A stretch of DNA of 64,000 nucleotides from Desulfobacteraceae bacterium (GTDB lineage Bacteria; Desulfobacterota; Desulfobacteria; Desulfobacterales; SURF-7). The stretch covers positions 62,001 through 126,000 of the forward strand of contig QZKS01000050.1 in assembly GCA_003599865.1 (NCBI GenBank), given 5' to 3'. The notes under the pieces are model-generated. The model did not search any database and had not been told where the DNA came from. It saw nothing but the letters and a program-made list of their open reading frames with translations. The translations under genes were made by a program, and so were the position numbers. Below are positions 23,516 through 62,284 of this stretch, piece by piece (the first letter of the stretch is position 1; every line of letters starts with the position of its first letter).

Positions 23516-23757
23516 AATAAACCTCCTGAATTCAATATTCGTTTAACACATGCTGTGATATTTGTTTAACCTGTTTGCATCGATGTTTGGTTTCTTAAAC
23601 ACACTCAGATGGAAAAAGTTGCACCAATTTTGATTTTTTCCATAACCATTTGATAATAAATGATGTTGACCTTGGCGGTTCATTCCTGCTACAAACGCGC
23701 AAATTTCATTTTTTTTGAAAGCACATCAATAAAACCACGTAAATTGGTTTGCCCAAC

Positions 23758-25077
23758 ATGATTCAATATATTCCGAAAATCAACACCATCATCCTTTGTA
23801 TGCTGATACTGTTGCCGGCAGCGGCTTTTCCACTGGAATACCAGGCCGGGATCATGTTGGACCAGCAACTCACATTGGAAAACAATTATTTCAACTCAAT
23901 CACCGGAAATTTTAATCAAAGCGACCCTTTTCATATCATCACCATTTCTCCGGATCTGCACGTGTCGGAAGGCAATCTGTTCAGCCTCTACCTGCTTGCC
24001 GATCTGACCTGGGACCACACCTGGAATGAAGAAGATACCGATGAGCTTTCCGCCGAATTTGCCAACGCCTATGTGAGCCTCCGTAAATTTGATCTGATTT
24101 CCGATATCGGCATCCAGTCGTTCCGCCTTGGCAGGGGCTATATCATGGCCGGCAATGAGCCGGGCATAACAGCCCAGTATCAATTCACACGCAAACTTTC
24201 CGGCAAGCTGGAGGCGGCTGAAATCATCCATATCTCCCCGATACTGTCCACAACAATTGATTATCAAATCGGATTTCTAGAAAAGTTGAGCATCTTCGGT
24301 GCCTGGTTTCACGATAATGATAATGGTTTTGCCGACATGCTCAATTATCAGGATCAAGTGCTGTTAAACCAATGGCTGTATTCTCGAAACCGGACTCTCT
24401 GGTTGCTGGATCAAACCGATCTGTTGAATTTTTCAAATAGCAAGGGCGACCTATTCTGGTATGGCCTGAGCGGCGATATTTTTCTGGGTGATTTTTTCCT
24501 GTCCGGGATTATGATTCTGGAAACAGGAAGCGGTACAGTCACCCTGGAATACCCCCACAGGGATTGGGAATTCACCGTGTCTTCCTACCTGATCGACATG
24601 GATCTTACTTACACGATGAACAATTCCTTTTCTGCCGGAACCTTTCTTTTTATAACCGGCGGAACCGATGCAAGGCAGAAAAACTTCAATACATTTATTG
24701 CTCCCATGCCGCAAAATAACCGAACCGCCATTTTTTTCAGTCCACGCTTCAGCAATCAAATTGAGGAAGATTTTCTGTCCAAGGGCGGCATTTATTGGGC
24801 CGGTGTTATTGCACCCGGAATAAAAATTCAATATGATCCATCTGAAAACTGGCAAACCGCCTTCACCCTGGCCACTTTTTTTCCGGAAGATAAACCCGCA
24901 AAGGAACGAAACTGGTATGGATGGGAAGCAGACTTTGATGTGTCTTATACCCTTCACAACAACTATACCTTATTTTGTGAATCCGGATGGTTCCAGCATG
25001 GCAATTTTTATGAATACCAGGGGAAAACTCCGGACCCGGCCACCAGATTCACAATTGGTATCAATGCCTTTTTTTAA
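23758..25077 (+). CDS. Predicted outer-membrane beta-barrel protein
   Basis: About 439 residues. A signal peptide (TIILCMLILLPAAAFPLEY) is followed by alternating amphipathic strands throughout and a C-terminal strand ending in Phe (FTIGINAFF), the usual BAM recognition signal. It is rich in aromatic residues and Asn, Asp and Thr. No named porin family recognised; the layout resembles alginate/AlgE-like or DUF1302-type barrels only in general character. A TTG at 23749 is an alternative start. It lies 48 bases upstream of the ECF sigma gene on the same strand, so it may belong to that operon or regulon. Confidence 0.72.
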   Translation: MIQYIPKINTIILCMLILLPAAAFPLEYQAGIMLDQQLTLENNYFNSITGNFNQSDPFHIITISPDLHVSEGNLFSLYLLADLTWDHTWNEEDTDELSAEFANAYVSLRKFDLISDIGIQSFRLGRGYIMAGNEPGITAQYQFTRKLSGKLEAAEIIHISPILSTTIDYQIGFLEKLSIFGAWFHDNDNGFADMLNYQDQVLLNQWLYSRNRTLWLLDQTDLLNFSNSKGDLFWYGLSGDIFLGDFFLSGIMILETGSGTVTLEYPHRDWEFTVSSYLIDMDLTYTMNNSFSAGTFLFITGGTDARQKNFNTFIAPMPQNNRTAIFFSPRFSNQIEEDFLSKGGIYWAGVIAPGIKIQYDPSENWQTAFTLATFFPEDKPAKERNWYGWEADFDVSYTLHNNYTLFCESGWFQHGNFYEYQGKTPDPATRFTIGINAFF

Positions 25078-25125: not shown

Positions 25126-25713
25126 ATGAGAGCAGATCCTGATTCACAATATATGTTGCGGTTCCAAAACGGAGACCGGGATGGTTTTCGAATTCTGTTC
25201 ACCAAATATTCGAAAAAAATCATCAATTTCTGCTATCGTTTTTGTGGAGACCGGGCAATGGCGGAAGAACTGGCACAGGAAGTATTTCTCCGGGTTTACA
25301 AGGCAGCGCCCCGGTACCGGCCGGAGGCCAAATTTTCAACCTGGCTGTTCCGGATCGCCACCAATGTTTGTTTGAATGAGATGCGCAAATATCGATATCG
25401 CGTTGTTACGGAAAATATGGATATGCCATTTCAAACAGACTCCGGTTCGGTGAAGCCGGAGATGGCAGATCCGGACATCCCCCATCCGCAGGAACGGATG
25501 GAAAAAAAAGATGAGGACCGGATACTGAAACGAGCCCTGAAATCGCTGCCCAAAAAACAACGAACCGCATTGCTGCTGAAAGTATATAATGATTTTTCAT
25601 ACCAGGAGATCGGCCAACAGATGAAACACTCGGAGAGCGCGGTCAAATCCTTGATTCACAGGGCCCGGCAAACCCTTATGAAGATAATTGAGAACACCGA
25701 CAGGAGTATTTGA
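25126..25713 (+). CDS. ECF RNA polymerase sigma factor (RpoE-like)
   Basis: 195 residues. Sigma region 2 (~20-90) has the DRAMAEELAQEVFLRVY and FSTWLFRIATNVCLNEMRK core-binding and -10 motifs; region 4 (~140-190) has LPKKQRTALLLKVYNDFSY and YQEIGQQMKHSESAVKSLI as the -35 helix-turn-helix. The insert between them is acidic and Pro-rich. It is followed one base later by a zinc-finger anti-sigma gene, a typical ECF pair. The start at ATG 25126 has no strong ribosome site. Confidence 0.93.
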   Translation: MRADPDSQYMLRFQNGDRDGFRILFTKYSKKIINFCYRFCGDRAMAEELAQEVFLRVYKAAPRYRPEAKFSTWLFRIATNVCLNEMRKYRYRVVTENMDMPFQTDSGSVKPEMADPDIPHPQERMEKKDEDRILKRALKSLPKKQRTALLLKVYNDFSYQEIGQQMKHSESAVKSLIHRARQTLMKIIENTDRSI

Positions 25714-25714
25714 A

Positions 25715-26188
25715 TTGAAATCAACATGTCCGGACAGCCTGCAGATATCGGCCTTCATGGATGCCGAACTCCCGGAGCATCAGATGGAAGCGTTTCGTTC
25801 GCATCTTACCAAATGTGAACATTGTTGGGAACAACTGGCCACGCTGCAACAGGCTGATCGATTGATCCATGATATGCCGGAAATAGAACCATCCCGGCAA
25901 TTTGAAATCAACTTCTGGAAAAACGTCCGTGCCATGGAAGAACAACGGCACAAGTGGTCGTTTTTCACTTTTTTTCCATTTCGTTATAAACCCTTGGCCG
26001 CAGCCATATTGAGCGCCATGATCCTTGTCGGTCTGGCTCTGTGGAAACATCAGCCTCCATCCTCCATTGAAATGGATGAAATTGTCATTGCGGAGAATCT
26101 GGAAATGCTCCGAAATTTTCAGGAAATCGATCGGCTGGAGCTTCTGGAAAACTTGGAAACCATTATCAATATGGATGAGAAATCCTAA
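25715..26188 (+). CDS. Zinc-finger anti-sigma factor, membrane-anchored
   Basis: 157 residues from TTG 25715, chosen because AGGAG lies eight bases upstream and the sigma stop is one base before it. The N-terminal ASD/zinc finger has His30, Cys34 and Cys37 (HLTKCEHC), a single membrane helix spans about 93-110 (PLAAAILSAMILVGLALW), and the periplasmic tail (111-157) is a short acidic, leucine-rich helix. It should hold the ECF sigma at the membrane. The tail resembles the next gene's product (see findings). Confidence 0.88.
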   Translation: MKSTCPDSLQISAFMDAELPEHQMEAFRSHLTKCEHCWEQLATLQQADRLIHDMPEIEPSRQFEINFWKNVRAMEEQRHKWSFFTFFPFRYKPLAAAILSAMILVGLALWKHQPPSSIEMDEIVIAENLEMLRNFQEIDRLELLENLETIINMDEKS

Positions 26189-26419
26189 ATGAAATCGATT
26201 TTTTTACTGCTGTGGATGGTACTTTTATTTCAGCCGGTACTGCCCGCCCATTCCGAAGAAAGCCAAACAGAAACCAATGTCGTCCGGATATCCGAAGAGG
26301 ATCTTGAAATCATAAAGGTTTTAGAAATCCTGAAAATGATGGCTCTGATGGAAAATTATGACATCGTGAAAGACATGGAAATACTTACCGAGGAAAATGC
26401 CGATGAAAATAAAAAATAA
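26189..26419 (+). CDS. Small secreted acidic protein resembling the anti-sigma tail
   Basis: 76 residues starting immediately after the anti-sigma stop. A signal peptide (FLLLWMVLLFQPVLPA) leaves a mature part of about 55 residues, strongly acidic and Leu/Ile/Met-rich. Residues 32-60 align without gaps in hydrophobic pattern with residues 122-150 of the anti-sigma factor, sharing the LE and MEN/LEN positions. No named family recognised. Its place between the anti-sigma and the DUF3106 gene suggests a part in the same periplasmic signalling step. Confidence 0.72.
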   Translation: MKSIFLLLWMVLLFQPVLPAHSEESQTETNVVRISEEDLEIIKVLEILKMMALMENYDIVKDMEILTEENADENKK

Positions 26420-26903
26420 TCTCGTGATGATGTTCGCATTCCTGCTTGTTACAATCGCTGCCGCTCATGCGTCGGATCAACCATCATCCGCAACGGACGA
26501 GTGGATGTCCATGACGGCTGAGGAAAAGCAGGCGTTCCGCAACCGGTATCATAACTGGAAATCGTTGCCGGAACCTGAAAGGAATAAGATCAGACAAAAC
26601 CTTGCGACATTTAAAAAGCTTCCAGCGGATGAAAAAAAGCGGATCATTGAAAATTATTCCCGTTTCCAATCCCTTTCGCCGGATCAGAAACAATCGCTCC
26701 GAAAAAATTTCAAACGATGGCAACAGCTTCCTCCGGAAAGAAAAAGACAGCTGCGGGAAAACCTTATAAAATTTCAAGGGCTCCGACCGGAACAGAAAAA
26801 AAGCCTGATCAACCGTTATCAAAACTGGCGGAAATTATCCCCGACAGAAAAGAAAACACGCAAAGATATCATTCGAGAAAAGAGAAGAAACCGGGATTCA
26901 TAA
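26403..26903 (+). CDS. DUF3106 protein built of 18-residue basic repeats
   Basis: 166 residues: a signal peptide ending near AHASD, then seven tandem 18-residue repeats from about residue 37, each beginning LPxExK/R with a Trp or Phe at position 16 (for example LPEPERNKIRQNLATFKK and LPADEKKRIIENYSRFQS). The mature protein is very basic. ATG 26403 is preferred over 26397 because AGGA is then eight bases upstream; the gene overlaps the end of the small acidic gene by 17 bases. DUF3106 proteins are commonly found at the end of ECF sigma operons; molecular function unknown. Confidence 0.85.
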   Translation: MKIKNNLVMMFAFLLVTIAAAHASDQPSSATDEWMSMTAEEKQAFRNRYHNWKSLPEPERNKIRQNLATFKKLPADEKKRIIENYSRFQSLSPDQKQSLRKNFKRWQQLPPERKRQLRENLIKFQGLRPEQKKSLINRYQNWRKLSPTEKKTRKDIIREKRRNRDS

Positions 26904-27140: not shown

Positions 27141-29444
27141 ATGGCGGAAAAACACGAAAATACGCAAGCTCTTCCGGAAAAACCACCCGGGCACTCAACT
27201 GTCTCCATGCCGGATACCGCATGGTTCACGGATGTTATCAATGAACTGAACATTACCCGTAAAAATGTGCTGATCTATCCGGATGAACACATCCAGATAC
27301 AAAACAGCATGAAACGATCTTTCCGTGCATTGAACCTGATTTTCTCATCCATTCCCAAATTAGTCATCACCATCACAGACAAAAAATTGATTGTGGGAAA
27401 TGAAACCTTTGATCCTCAGAACAGACGATTTAAAGAATTTGCAGACGCTATCCGGCAGCATGAAATTATTTCGGTTATTTTTCTGAAAGGGATTGAAACA
27501 GAAGAGCTGCTAAGATTTCTCCGCATCATCGCCACCAAACCGGAAACCATCAGAAGCATGGGTGGTATTGAAAAAACGGCAAGAGACAACTCCCTTTTCA
27601 ATATTGAAATCAAAACCATTGACTTCAGCAAACTCCACCTCACAGAAGAAACCAATATTGTCGTTGATCAGGCAGGCAAAAAAACAGATGCCGACCCAAA
27701 GAGCGTATGGGATAATCTGGTCATGAACCTGGTATCCGGTTCCATCACCGATTCCGACATGGGTGTCGACCTTTTTGTCGCAAACAAAATTACACCGACG
27801 GAACTTGCCGGATTTCTGAACGACCAAAATCCGGATTCAATGCGCTCCATAAGGCTGTTTGAGAATTTGTTCCGGATAAGCCTTTCAAAAATTGAAACCC
27901 ATGAAGAGGACAGCGAGCAGGCTTCCAGGCATTTCAATAACGTCAACCTGCTCCTGCAGGAACTGAATCCGGAGATGCGTCAACAGTTTCTATCCGTTAC
28001 CCTGCAGCACTGCAATGATGAATCCGATCCGCAGAAATCCCGGACAATCATCAGCGGCTTGCAGGAAAAATTTATCATTGAAATGATGCGACAGGCCAAT
28101 GATCGAGGGCAGGAAATTTCACCATCCTTAATTGAATTTACAAAAAAAATAGCCAATATCAAAGGCTTGCCCCCATCTTCATTCGGGAATACCAATCCTG
28201 ACGCGCTGGAAAACGATTCGGCAATACAAACGAAAGAGGCAGAGACCTTATTCAAGCGGGAGTCCTTTGAACAATATGTTACCAAGGAATATGAGGAAAT
28301 GCTGTCCGGTCTTGCCTCAACCGAACAATTGGAAATCGTATCGGATCCGGAACGGTTTTCCATTGAAGACCATCTGAAAACACTGGAAGAAAAAAATCTG
28401 GATATCCAGATTGCCAGAGTTCTCATCGCATTCATCAATGAAAACATTGAACTGGATGAGTATCTGGATTATTCCAAACGGCTGATCTCCATCTGCAATG
28501 AAATCAGCATTTCAAGGAATGAAGATTTTCTTTTCCTGAAAGAAATCTTTTTTACCTTTAAACTACATGCCATCCATAAATCCAACCCGGAACTGCGATC
28601 CATTGCCGGAATCTGTTTGGAAGAGATTGAAAAACCACTGTTCTTCGCCAGGGCAGTGGATGCTTTTGACAAGCTGGGAAAACAGGAAAACAATGAGGCC
28701 ATTGATTTTCTGGTTCTGCTTGGACCGAAAATTGTTCCTGAAGTGGTTAATCTGTTTGCCAAATATGAATATCCGGAAAACGGAAAGCACCTGATAAACC
28801 TTCTCTCCAACTTCAGTGAAGCGGCATGCAATGAGGTTAAGAAAAGAATTCATGACCCAAGGCCATCCTATGTTAAAAATCTCGTTATCCTGACCCGGGA
28901 AATCGGAAATAAGGAGATTGCATCCTACCTGGATTATCTGCTGGATCATAAAGATCAGACCATCCAGCTGGAAACGCTATCCGCACTGTTAAAATTTCAT
29001 CATCCAAAGGCAGGCCACCTTCTCTGCCGCCTACTAGACGCAAGCCAGCCTGAAATCGTTTCTCAGGCAATTCAATTGTCCGGGCAATACAAAGTACAGG
29101 AAACAGCGGAACACCTTGTCAAAATGCTGAAAAGTCCGGCCATCACAAGAACAACTATCCAAAAAAATGAAGAACTGATCCTCGCACTGGGCAACATCGG
29201 TAATCCTGTTGCCATACCATTTCTGGAAAAACTGGTCAGAACCTACTTCACACTTTTCCCCAAAACATTGTTAAAAATGAAACAGACCATTTTCGAAACC
29301 CTTGATAGCTATCCGGATATAGAAGTCTCTTCTTTGTTGAAAATCGGAATTCGAATGGAGAACCCCAAAATAAAAAAGATATGTCAACATTATCTTAAAG
29401 ATGTTCAAAACAAGAACAAACCTGACTATCATGATATGCCATGA
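27141..29444 (+). CDS. HEAT-repeat-like protein with shared N-terminal domain
   Basis: 767 residues, no signal peptide or membrane helix, so cytoplasmic. Residues ~33-135 form an alpha/beta domain (RKNVLIYPDEH, KLVITITDKKLIVGNETF, FLRIIATKP) that resembles the N-terminus of the next protein. A long helical middle follows, and from about 540 to 750 a run of helical pairs resembling HEAT/Armadillo repeats (EAIDFLVLLGPKIVPEVVNLF, LLDHKDQTIQLETLSALLKF, ELILALGNIGNPVAIPFLEKL). Probable scaffold or partner of the downstream HD-GYP protein, 17 bases away. Start ATG 27141 has no clear ribosome site. Confidence 0.75.
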   Translation: MAEKHENTQALPEKPPGHSTVSMPDTAWFTDVINELNITRKNVLIYPDEHIQIQNSMKRSFRALNLIFSSIPKLVITITDKKLIVGNETFDPQNRRFKEFADAIRQHEIISVIFLKGIETEELLRFLRIIATKPETIRSMGGIEKTARDNSLFNIEIKTIDFSKLHLTEETNIVVDQAGKKTDADPKSVWDNLVMNLVSGSITDSDMGVDLFVANKITPTELAGFLNDQNPDSMRSIRLFENLFRISLSKIETHEEDSEQASRHFNNVNLLLQELNPEMRQQFLSVTLQHCNDESDPQKSRTIISGLQEKFIIEMMRQANDRGQEISPSLIEFTKKIANIKGLPPSSFGNTNPDALENDSAIQTKEAETLFKRESFEQYVTKEYEEMLSGLASTEQLEIVSDPERFSIEDHLKTLEEKNLDIQIARVLIAFINENIELDEYLDYSKRLISICNEISISRNEDFLFLKEIFFTFKLHAIHKSNPELRSIAGICLEEIEKPLFFARAVDAFDKLGKQENNEAIDFLVLLGPKIVPEVVNLFAKYEYPENGKHLINLLSNFSEAACNEVKKRIHDPRPSYVKNLVILTREIGNKEIASYLDYLLDHKDQTIQLETLSALLKFHHPKAGHLLCRLLDASQPEIVSQAIQLSGQYKVQETAEHLVKMLKSPAITRTTIQKNEELILALGNIGNPVAIPFLEKLVRTYFTLFPKTLLKMKQTIFETLDSYPDIEVSSLLKIGIRMENPKIKKICQHYLKDVQNKNKPDYHDMP

Positions 29445-29461
29445 GTCAATACAAAACCTGA

Positions 29462-30622
29462 ATGTCACTTTTCAAGACGGCTGAAATGGAACATAAAAAA
29501 GAACTGTTACAGATTATCAAAACCTTTAATGCGGCAATTGTCAATTCACGCCTGTACTCCTTTGAACATCCCCAGGTCAAACGATATATCGAAGAAACGT
29601 TTATCGAACTTGATCGTCTTCTGATGATTCTGCAGGAGATCACCCTGATTGTTGTCGGTACAAATCTGGTTTTCCGGAACCAGACTATTCAGGGAAGCGG
29701 GCCGAATATCAAACAATTTATCAGTATCTTGCAGGATAATAAAATTGATCGCATTTCATTTCTTTCCCATCTTCCCAAATCCTCTTTTTATGAACTGATA
29801 CAAAAACTCTCTTCTTCTGAAACAAGGGAATTGAACAGCACCGAATATGTTAAGCTTGGAAAGGTTGAAATCAGGATTGAGGATAATCCGTTTTCCCAGA
29901 ATCAACTGTCTTCTGATGAATATTCGGAAAAAATGGATCAGTTGTTATCCCTCCGAGACGAAACCCTGCAGGAAATTAAAGAAATTTATAATGGTATAAA
30001 AAAATATAAAAAACAAATTGATGTCCGTGGTATCGAAACCATGGTGAAAACATTTATCAAGGGATTCTCACACGGCATCAACCCCATCAGCATGCTGGCC
30101 TCACTGAAATCGGCGGATGAATACACCTTCACCCATGTGATCAATGTCTGTATTCTTACCATGAGCCAGGCGGAAGCTCTCGGCTTTTCAGGCGAAAAGC
30201 TTTACCAGATCGGAATTGCCTCGGTTATGCATGATGCGGGAAAGCTCTTCATCCCGGAAGAAATACTGAACAAGCCAGGCATGTTGACAACAGAAGAAAG
30301 AGCGATCATTGAAACCCACACAACAAAAGGAGCCCGATATATTCTTGGACTTGAAAATATCCCCCAGATCGCTGTGCTGGGTGCCCTGGAACACCATATC
30401 AAATATAACGGAACCGGCTATCCTGTCATGCAAAAGAAATGGACTCCGAATATCGTCAGTCAGATGATTTCCATTGCCGATGTATTTGATGCCATGAGAA
30501 GCCGCAGGGCCTATAAAGAACCAAAGCCAAAAGAATTGATCATCCAAATTTTAAACGAGGAAAAAGGCACATCCTTTAACCCGTTTCTTGTGGATCATTT
30601 TATCAAGCTGATAAAAGGTTAG
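29462..30622 (+). CDS. HD-GYP domain phosphodiesterase
   Basis: 386 residues. The N-terminal domain (~20-120) matches the pattern of the upstream HEAT protein's N-terminus (SRLYSFEHPQVKRYI, LIVVGTNLVFRNQTI). A short helical linker leads to an HD-GYP domain with His225 in FTHVINVC, the HD doublet at 257-258 (MHDAGK), HH at 311-312 and an intact GYP at 319-321 in NGTGYP. Predicted c-di-GMP or cGAMP phosphodiesterase. There is no receiver domain, so control is likely through the N-terminal domain or the HEAT partner. Confidence 0.9.
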   Translation: MSLFKTAEMEHKKELLQIIKTFNAAIVNSRLYSFEHPQVKRYIEETFIELDRLLMILQEITLIVVGTNLVFRNQTIQGSGPNIKQFISILQDNKIDRISFLSHLPKSSFYELIQKLSSSETRELNSTEYVKLGKVEIRIEDNPFSQNQLSSDEYSEKMDQLLSLRDETLQEIKEIYNGIKKYKKQIDVRGIETMVKTFIKGFSHGINPISMLASLKSADEYTFTHVINVCILTMSQAEALGFSGEKLYQIGIASVMHDAGKLFIPEEILNKPGMLTTEERAIIETHTTKGARYILGLENIPQIAVLGALEHHIKYNGTGYPVMQKKWTPNIVSQMISIADVFDAMRSRRAYKEPKPKELIIQILNEEKGTSFNPFLVDHFIKLIKG

Positions 30623-61663: not shown

Positions 61664-62284
61664 ATGATCATCAAATCCGCTGAATTTGTCACAAGTGCCG
61701 TAAAGAAAAATCATTATCCGCCTGCCGAGCACCCGGAAATCGCTTTTGCCGGAAGATCCAATGTGGGAAAATCATCCCTGATCAATACCCTGTTAAACCG
61801 GAAACATCTGGTCAAAACCAGCTCGACTCCCGGAAGAACGCAGCTCATCAATTTCTTTATGATCAATGCATCCCTGATGTTTGTCGATCTGCCGGGTTTC
61901 GGATATGCCAGGGTCCCCCAGAAAATTCAAAAAGAATGGGGCCCCATGATTGAAACCTATCTTTTAAACCGGGAAACCTTGCGGGGAGTTGTCCTGATCA
62001 TGGACATCCGGAGAAATCCGGGACAGTATGAATTTGATCTGATCAACTGGCTGTCCCATCACGGCATACCCTGTCTTCCGGTGATGACCAAAGCGGACAA
62101 GCTCAAAAAAAACCAACAGACCCTGCAACACAAACAGGCTGCAGAAACACTTGGCATGGATCCAAAAGACCTTCTTCTTTTTTCCGCAAAAACCCGTCAG
62201 GGCAAGGAGATGATCTGGACGGAGATCACACGCCTGGTTCAACCCGAGATTCAGCCGCAAACCCTTCAGGAAGATCATGAATAA
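61664..62284 (+). CDS. engB: Ribosome biogenesis GTPase YihA/YsxC/EngB
   Basis: 206 residues. G1 GRSNVGKSSLI, G3 VDLPGFGYA, G4 TKADKLKKN and G5 SAKTRQG are in order. TRAFAC-class GTPase required for assembly of the 50S subunit. Begins nine bases after the aminotransferase stop. Confidence 0.95.
   Translation: MIIKSAEFVTSAVKKNHYPPAEHPEIAFAGRSNVGKSSLINTLLNRKHLVKTSSTPGRTQLINFFMINASLMFVDLPGFGYARVPQKIQKEWGPMIETYLLNRETLRGVVLIMDIRRNPGQYEFDLINWLSHHGIPCLPVMTKADKLKKNQQTLQHKQAAETLGMDPKDLLLFSAKTRQGKEMIWTEITRLVQPEIQPQTLQEDHE

Follow-up and report, generated by a model that had tools for sequence, protein, structure and literature searches.

In the RpoE-RseA-RseB system of Escherichia coli, the protein RseB binds the periplasmic domain of the anti-sigma factor RseA (PMC8103513). 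By analogy we propose a similar arrangement, in which a periplasmic protein would sit on the periplasmic part of an anti-sigma factor, for the DUF3106 protein encoded in a gene cluster of a Desulfobacteraceae bacterium. The cluster lies in a stretch of 64,000 nucleotides (positions 62,001 to 126,000 of contig QZKS01000050.1), hereafter the window, to which all coordinates refer. Its four genes, all on the + strand, encode a sigma factor of the extracytoplasmic function (ECF) type, a membrane anti-sigma factor, a small secreted acidic protein and DUF3106. The subject of this study is an acidic six-residue repeat present in both the anti-sigma tail and the small protein.

Unlike in the RseA system, the anti-sigma factor of the window belongs to the zf-HC2 type and has a short acidic tail, and the operon appears to add an extra, soluble copy of that tail. 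A Pfam scan assigned the DUF3106 protein to no RseB-type family; the protein is predicted to form an all-helical repeat array, for which the PDB offered no convincing fold match. The zinc finger at the N-terminus of the anti-sigma factor matches zf-HC2, as in anti-sigma factors of the ZAS type such as RsrA, and the RsrA model TIGR03988 gave a weak match below its cut-off (2.2e-6). Unlike RsrA, the protein is membrane-anchored and carries its acidic hexad-repeat tail outside the membrane. The same gene order (sigma factor, acidic-tailed membrane protein, in many cases a small secreted protein, then DUF3106) is found in DUF3619-DUF3106 operons (loci L076, L102, L121, L123 and L125; the DUF3619 identity was tested in one of them). 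In these operons, however, DUF3619 replaces zf-HC2 and the small protein has another sequence (LEFLGEWETDDGQWVDP), which showed no likeness to its own tail beyond chance in a shuffle test. The literature searched named neither DUF3106 nor DUF3619.

An acidic hexad motif in anti-sigma tails and small secreted proteins

The first-pass annotation of the window had aligned residues 122-150 of the anti-sigma factor with residues 32-60 of the small protein. This gapless alignment proved correct to the residue, with six identities in 29 positions and a BLOSUM62 score of 32. The identities comprise the LE (129-130/39-40) and EN (145-146/55-56) pairs already pointed out, together with E127/E37 and L143/L53. 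Both segments are indeed acidic; the tail has a net charge of -9, and that of the small protein is -10. The leucine/isoleucine pattern is likewise common to both, but it follows a six-residue repeat rather than a single helix face or a heptad. The best ungapped local alignment between the tail and the mature small protein kept the same register; its score was 42, where shuffles averaged 27.7 (p = 0.018), and a gapped alignment of the pair reached p = 0.039 against shuffles. Within the window alone the likeness is marginal, and given this modest support it was tested in relatives.

A first set of 120 DUF3106 loci was assembled, 110 of which have sigma and anti-sigma genes, 101 of these of the zf-HC2 type. 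A second set brought in 60 more loci, most of them from another order; 48 loci of the zf-HC2 type were usable. A custom script assigned start codons and small genes in the relatives, and the motif profiles used throughout are short. The annotation would have been contradicted by a similarity confined to the window, yet the likeness is kept in orthologous operons: comparison of hidden Markov models of the two segments with hhalign gave probabilities of 95.7-96.4%, and 28 of 36 cognate pairs of tail and small protein were similar at p < 0.05. A profile was built from the tails of loci that have no small protein, the window excluded. With it, 30 of 31 small proteins scored higher than 99% of shuffles (median 18.6 bits against 0.4 for shuffles), compared with 5 of 31 reversed small proteins. 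In the reverse test, a small-protein profile placed 97 of 101 tails above 99% of shuffles. In the second set, the profiles detected the motif in the tails of all 48 usable loci of the zf-HC2 type, and they recognised 20 small proteins. Across loci the likeness between tail and small protein is real and far beyond chance.

The common unit in tails and small proteins reads [DN]-[LM]-[ED]-[LIV]-[LI]-x, usually in three to five copies, with the hexad consensus D/N-L-E/D-L-L-E; it spans the tail and most of the mature small protein. Autocorrelation of the motif peaks at 3, 6 and 12 and shows no peak at 7, the heptad spacing of coiled-coil pairing. Tails from loci with a small protein, tails from loci without one and the small proteins themselves are about equally alike, so that the small protein resembles a free-standing copy of the tail.

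In the window, the motif occupies positions 26072..26179 (+) of the anti-sigma gene and 26288..26386 (+) of the small-protein gene, matched within their own genome at E = 6.6e-9 and 8.5e-8, respectively, by a profile (A2) that includes the window's own rows. Against a profile free of small proteins and of the window, the small protein scored 18.8 bits, a value reached by none of 30 of its own shuffles. A stringent profile of the tails of other loci matched neither the tail nor the small protein of the window genome-wide at E <= 1; the window pair is therefore weak on its own.

Linkage to DUF3106 and its basic repeat array

Of 395 genomes sampled from the phylum, 80 carry DUF3106 genes, as do 73 of 389 from the order. 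When the 395 whole genomes were searched with profile A2, all 56 matches, from 46 genomes, lay within 1.7 kb of a DUF3106 gene. Matches were thus confined to 46 of the 80 genomes with DUF3106, compared with none of the 315 others; the rows of A2 all come from DUF3106 loci, and 31 of the 46 matched genomes contributed no row. With the stringent profile mentioned above, made from tails only and excluding the window and all small proteins, every match below 1e-3 in 30 genomes fell in a DUF3106 operon. This profile also picked up the small proteins of genomes G034, G294, G267 and G332 at genome-wide E-values of 4e-6 to 5e-5. Two candidates for natural fusions of the motif to DUF3106 (L119 and L068) turned out to be signal-peptide matches, and no true fusion was found.

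In the window, DUF3106 is a periplasmic protein of 168 residues with seven basic, predicted helical repeats of 18 residues (26397..26903, +; Pfam PF11304, 1.9e-27), which belongs to its family with 96.2 bits against a cut-off of 24.3; an alternative start is the ATG at 26403. An AlphaFold2 model (mean predicted local distance difference test score, pLDDT, 86.8) consists of regular 15-residue helices separated by three-residue turns, giving the period of 18. A search with this model returned no Foldseek match under E 5, and a DUF3106 profile gave only weak matches to PDB sequences (best E 0.015). The best VIA-align match, to TrpR (Z 5.1), was discarded as not meaningful for helical repeats. The charge of DUF3106 is opposite to that of both motif-bearing proteins: the mature protein of the window carries +20, and across loci the median net charges are +15 for DUF3106, -8 for tails and -12 for small proteins.

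The number of repeats varies with the presence of the small protein, a pattern found by looking and not predicted beforehand. In the first set, DUF3106 has 6-10 repeats (mean 7.1) in loci with a small protein and 3-8 (mean 4.6) in loci without, and all 36 loci with a small protein have at least 6 repeats (U test, 1e-12). The association stays, at modest strength, after correction for relatedness (independent contrasts, r = 0.40, p = 0.008). The second set shows a small difference in the same direction, with means of 6.05 repeats in loci with the small protein and 5.2 in loci without it (p = 4e-4, kinship ignored). What can be said most safely is that no small protein accompanies a short array of 3-4 repeats in either set.

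The gene cluster in the window and in relatives

The cluster begins with the ECF sigma-70 factor of 195 residues (25126..25713, +), which exceeds the Pfam cut-offs for Sigma70_r2 (2.6e-21) and Sigma70_r4_2 (1.6e-16) and reaches 120 bits with TIGR02937 (cut-off 42.9). In the only named relative found, a Desulfobacterales metagenome-assembled genome, the sigma factor is 52% identical. One nucleotide past the stop of the sigma gene in the window, and preceded by AGGAG, starts the gene of the zf-HC2 anti-sigma factor (25715..26188, +; 157 residues, TTG start; zf-HC2 4e-5). Its zinc finger scores 24.1 bits with PF13490 (cut-off 22.2) and contains HxxxCxxC as HLTKCEHC; the single transmembrane segment is PLAAAILSAMILVGLALW. 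From the gene order we infer that this protein binds and inhibits the adjoining sigma factor. A second zf-HC2 anti-sigma factor, sought in the same genome as a control, was absent. The small protein (76 residues with a signal peptide; 26189..26419, +) matched no Pfam or NCBIfam family. Its reading frame begins directly behind the stop of the anti-sigma gene, in agreement with the adjacency reported earlier, and its end overlaps the DUF3106 gene. Given the near-zero spacing and the overlap, co-translation of the cluster is likely. Four simple patterns for an autoregulatory promoter of the ECF type showed no clear enrichment over shuffles.

In the first set, a small secreted protein precedes DUF3106 in 41 of the 110 loci with sigma and anti-sigma genes, 36 times of the window type. 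Both the place and the sequence of this type are conserved across 36 of the 101 zf-HC2-type loci. Locus L119, within a clade that has the small protein, has cleanly lost the gene. The anti-sigma factor ends in a hydrophobic residue in 43 of 65 first-set loci without the small protein (for example as YV, YA or HA) and in 11 of 36 with it; such an end could be a protease or PDZ signal.

Several neighbouring genes were recorded besides. A predicted exported protein (23749-25077) stops 49 nt upstream of the sigma gene and may belong to the same unit; in L061 and L063, two loci from the same genus, the sigma gene likewise follows the end of this gene. Downstream, a HEAT-repeat protein (27141-29444) adjoins an HD-domain protein of the HD-GYP type (29462-30622), and the two have weakly similar N-terminal stretches of about 96 residues (20% identity, E 1e-4). 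Another locus of the same genus (L062, genome G474) carries a second DUF3106 gene, with no sigma gene within the 3 kb covered. In L133 (G011), a 517-residue protein ends in DUF3106 and has a front part that looks FecR-like by eye.

Possible roles of the small protein

A common partner of tail and small protein, as assumed in the first-pass annotation, is plausible since the motif occurs only beside DUF3106 genes and DUF3106 is oppositely charged. From these sequence features, DUF3106 appears to be the best candidate for that partner, and by analogy with RseB it is likely the periplasmic partner of the anti-sigma tail. In the explanation that we propose, the basic helical repeats of DUF3106, 18 residues each, would serve tail and small protein alike as docking sites in the periplasm. 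By holding or shielding the anti-sigma tail, DUF3106 would act like RseB. The small protein, as a soluble copy of the tail, would occupy further repeats of the same array and thereby set the amount of DUF3106 free for the anti-sigma factor. Taken as a whole, including the binding, the shielding and the effect on sigma release, this explanation seems to us about evenly poised between right and wrong. A more tentative extension, possible but doubtful, is that the array counts acidic hexads on the anti-sigma factor and on its soluble mimic, and that sigma release is set by the stoichiometry of the two on a single scaffold.

Several observations weigh against joint docking. The association with repeat number is mostly one between lineages, with only two independent pairs on supported branches, and second-set loci without a small protein mostly still have 5-6 repeats. 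The small protein is absent from 65 of the 101 zf-HC2-type loci; as so many loci do without it, it is an accessory component. Convergence is another possible origin of acidic repeats this short. For a locus with small protein and DUF3106 in one frame, a structure was predicted with the stop read as Q; the small part was helical at pLDDT 67-75, with a predicted template modelling score of 0.56, and this prediction was not used as evidence.

The earlier suggestion that the small protein is a decoy or sensor is plausible in so far as it names a shared partner. In its stricter form the small protein would compete with the tail for one DUF3106 site and, by winning, expose the tail to proteolysis so that the sigma factor is released. 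The motif common to both proteins and its exclusive linkage to DUF3106 fit such competition. The small-protein gene, however, lies between the anti-sigma and DUF3106 genes at near-zero spacing, and its product is therefore probably made together with theirs in a roughly constant fashion, which disfavours an induced competitor. The longer arrays in loci with the small protein point to added sites rather than one contested site, and joint docking fits them at least as well as competition. We thus regard the decoy as unlikely and prefer extra places on a longer array, while both readings remain live. The same longer arrays, the opposite charges and the directly adjoining genes would also agree with a small protein that merely neutralises the basic array during export and storage, as a chaperone of DUF3106 without a part in sigma regulation. 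Neutralising charge would require neither a leucine pattern nor a hexad register in common with the anti-sigma tail, and this role is rather improbable.

Tail and small protein might instead bind each other in a hetero-assembly at the membrane, with DUF3106 not a partner, given that the same leucine-rich repeats in both could self-associate. Yet both are strongly acidic, their period is 6 and not the 7 of coiled coils, and the fact that the motif is linked to DUF3106 alone, even in loci without a small protein, would be left unexplained; we consider such an assembly very unlikely. A resemblance by composition alone, between two acidic periplasmic segments without common function, would agree with the marginal values of the window pair (p 0.02-0.04). 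It is largely refuted by the profile tests across the family, controlled with shuffled and reversed sequences, the genome-wide specificity of the motif and its recognition in further loci, and is scarcely credible.

With joint docking on DUF3106 as our preferred reading, the locus adds a new and widespread element to a switch of known type, made up of an ECF sigma factor, a membrane anti-sigma factor and a putative periplasmic partner, the mechanism of which we infer. The shared motif offers a testable assignment, in which DUF3106 would be the periplasmic partner of the anti-sigma tail and a soluble copy of the tail its tuner. If true, this would give a role to a common gene neighbourhood, as DUF3106 is present in 80 of the 395 genomes sampled from the phylum.
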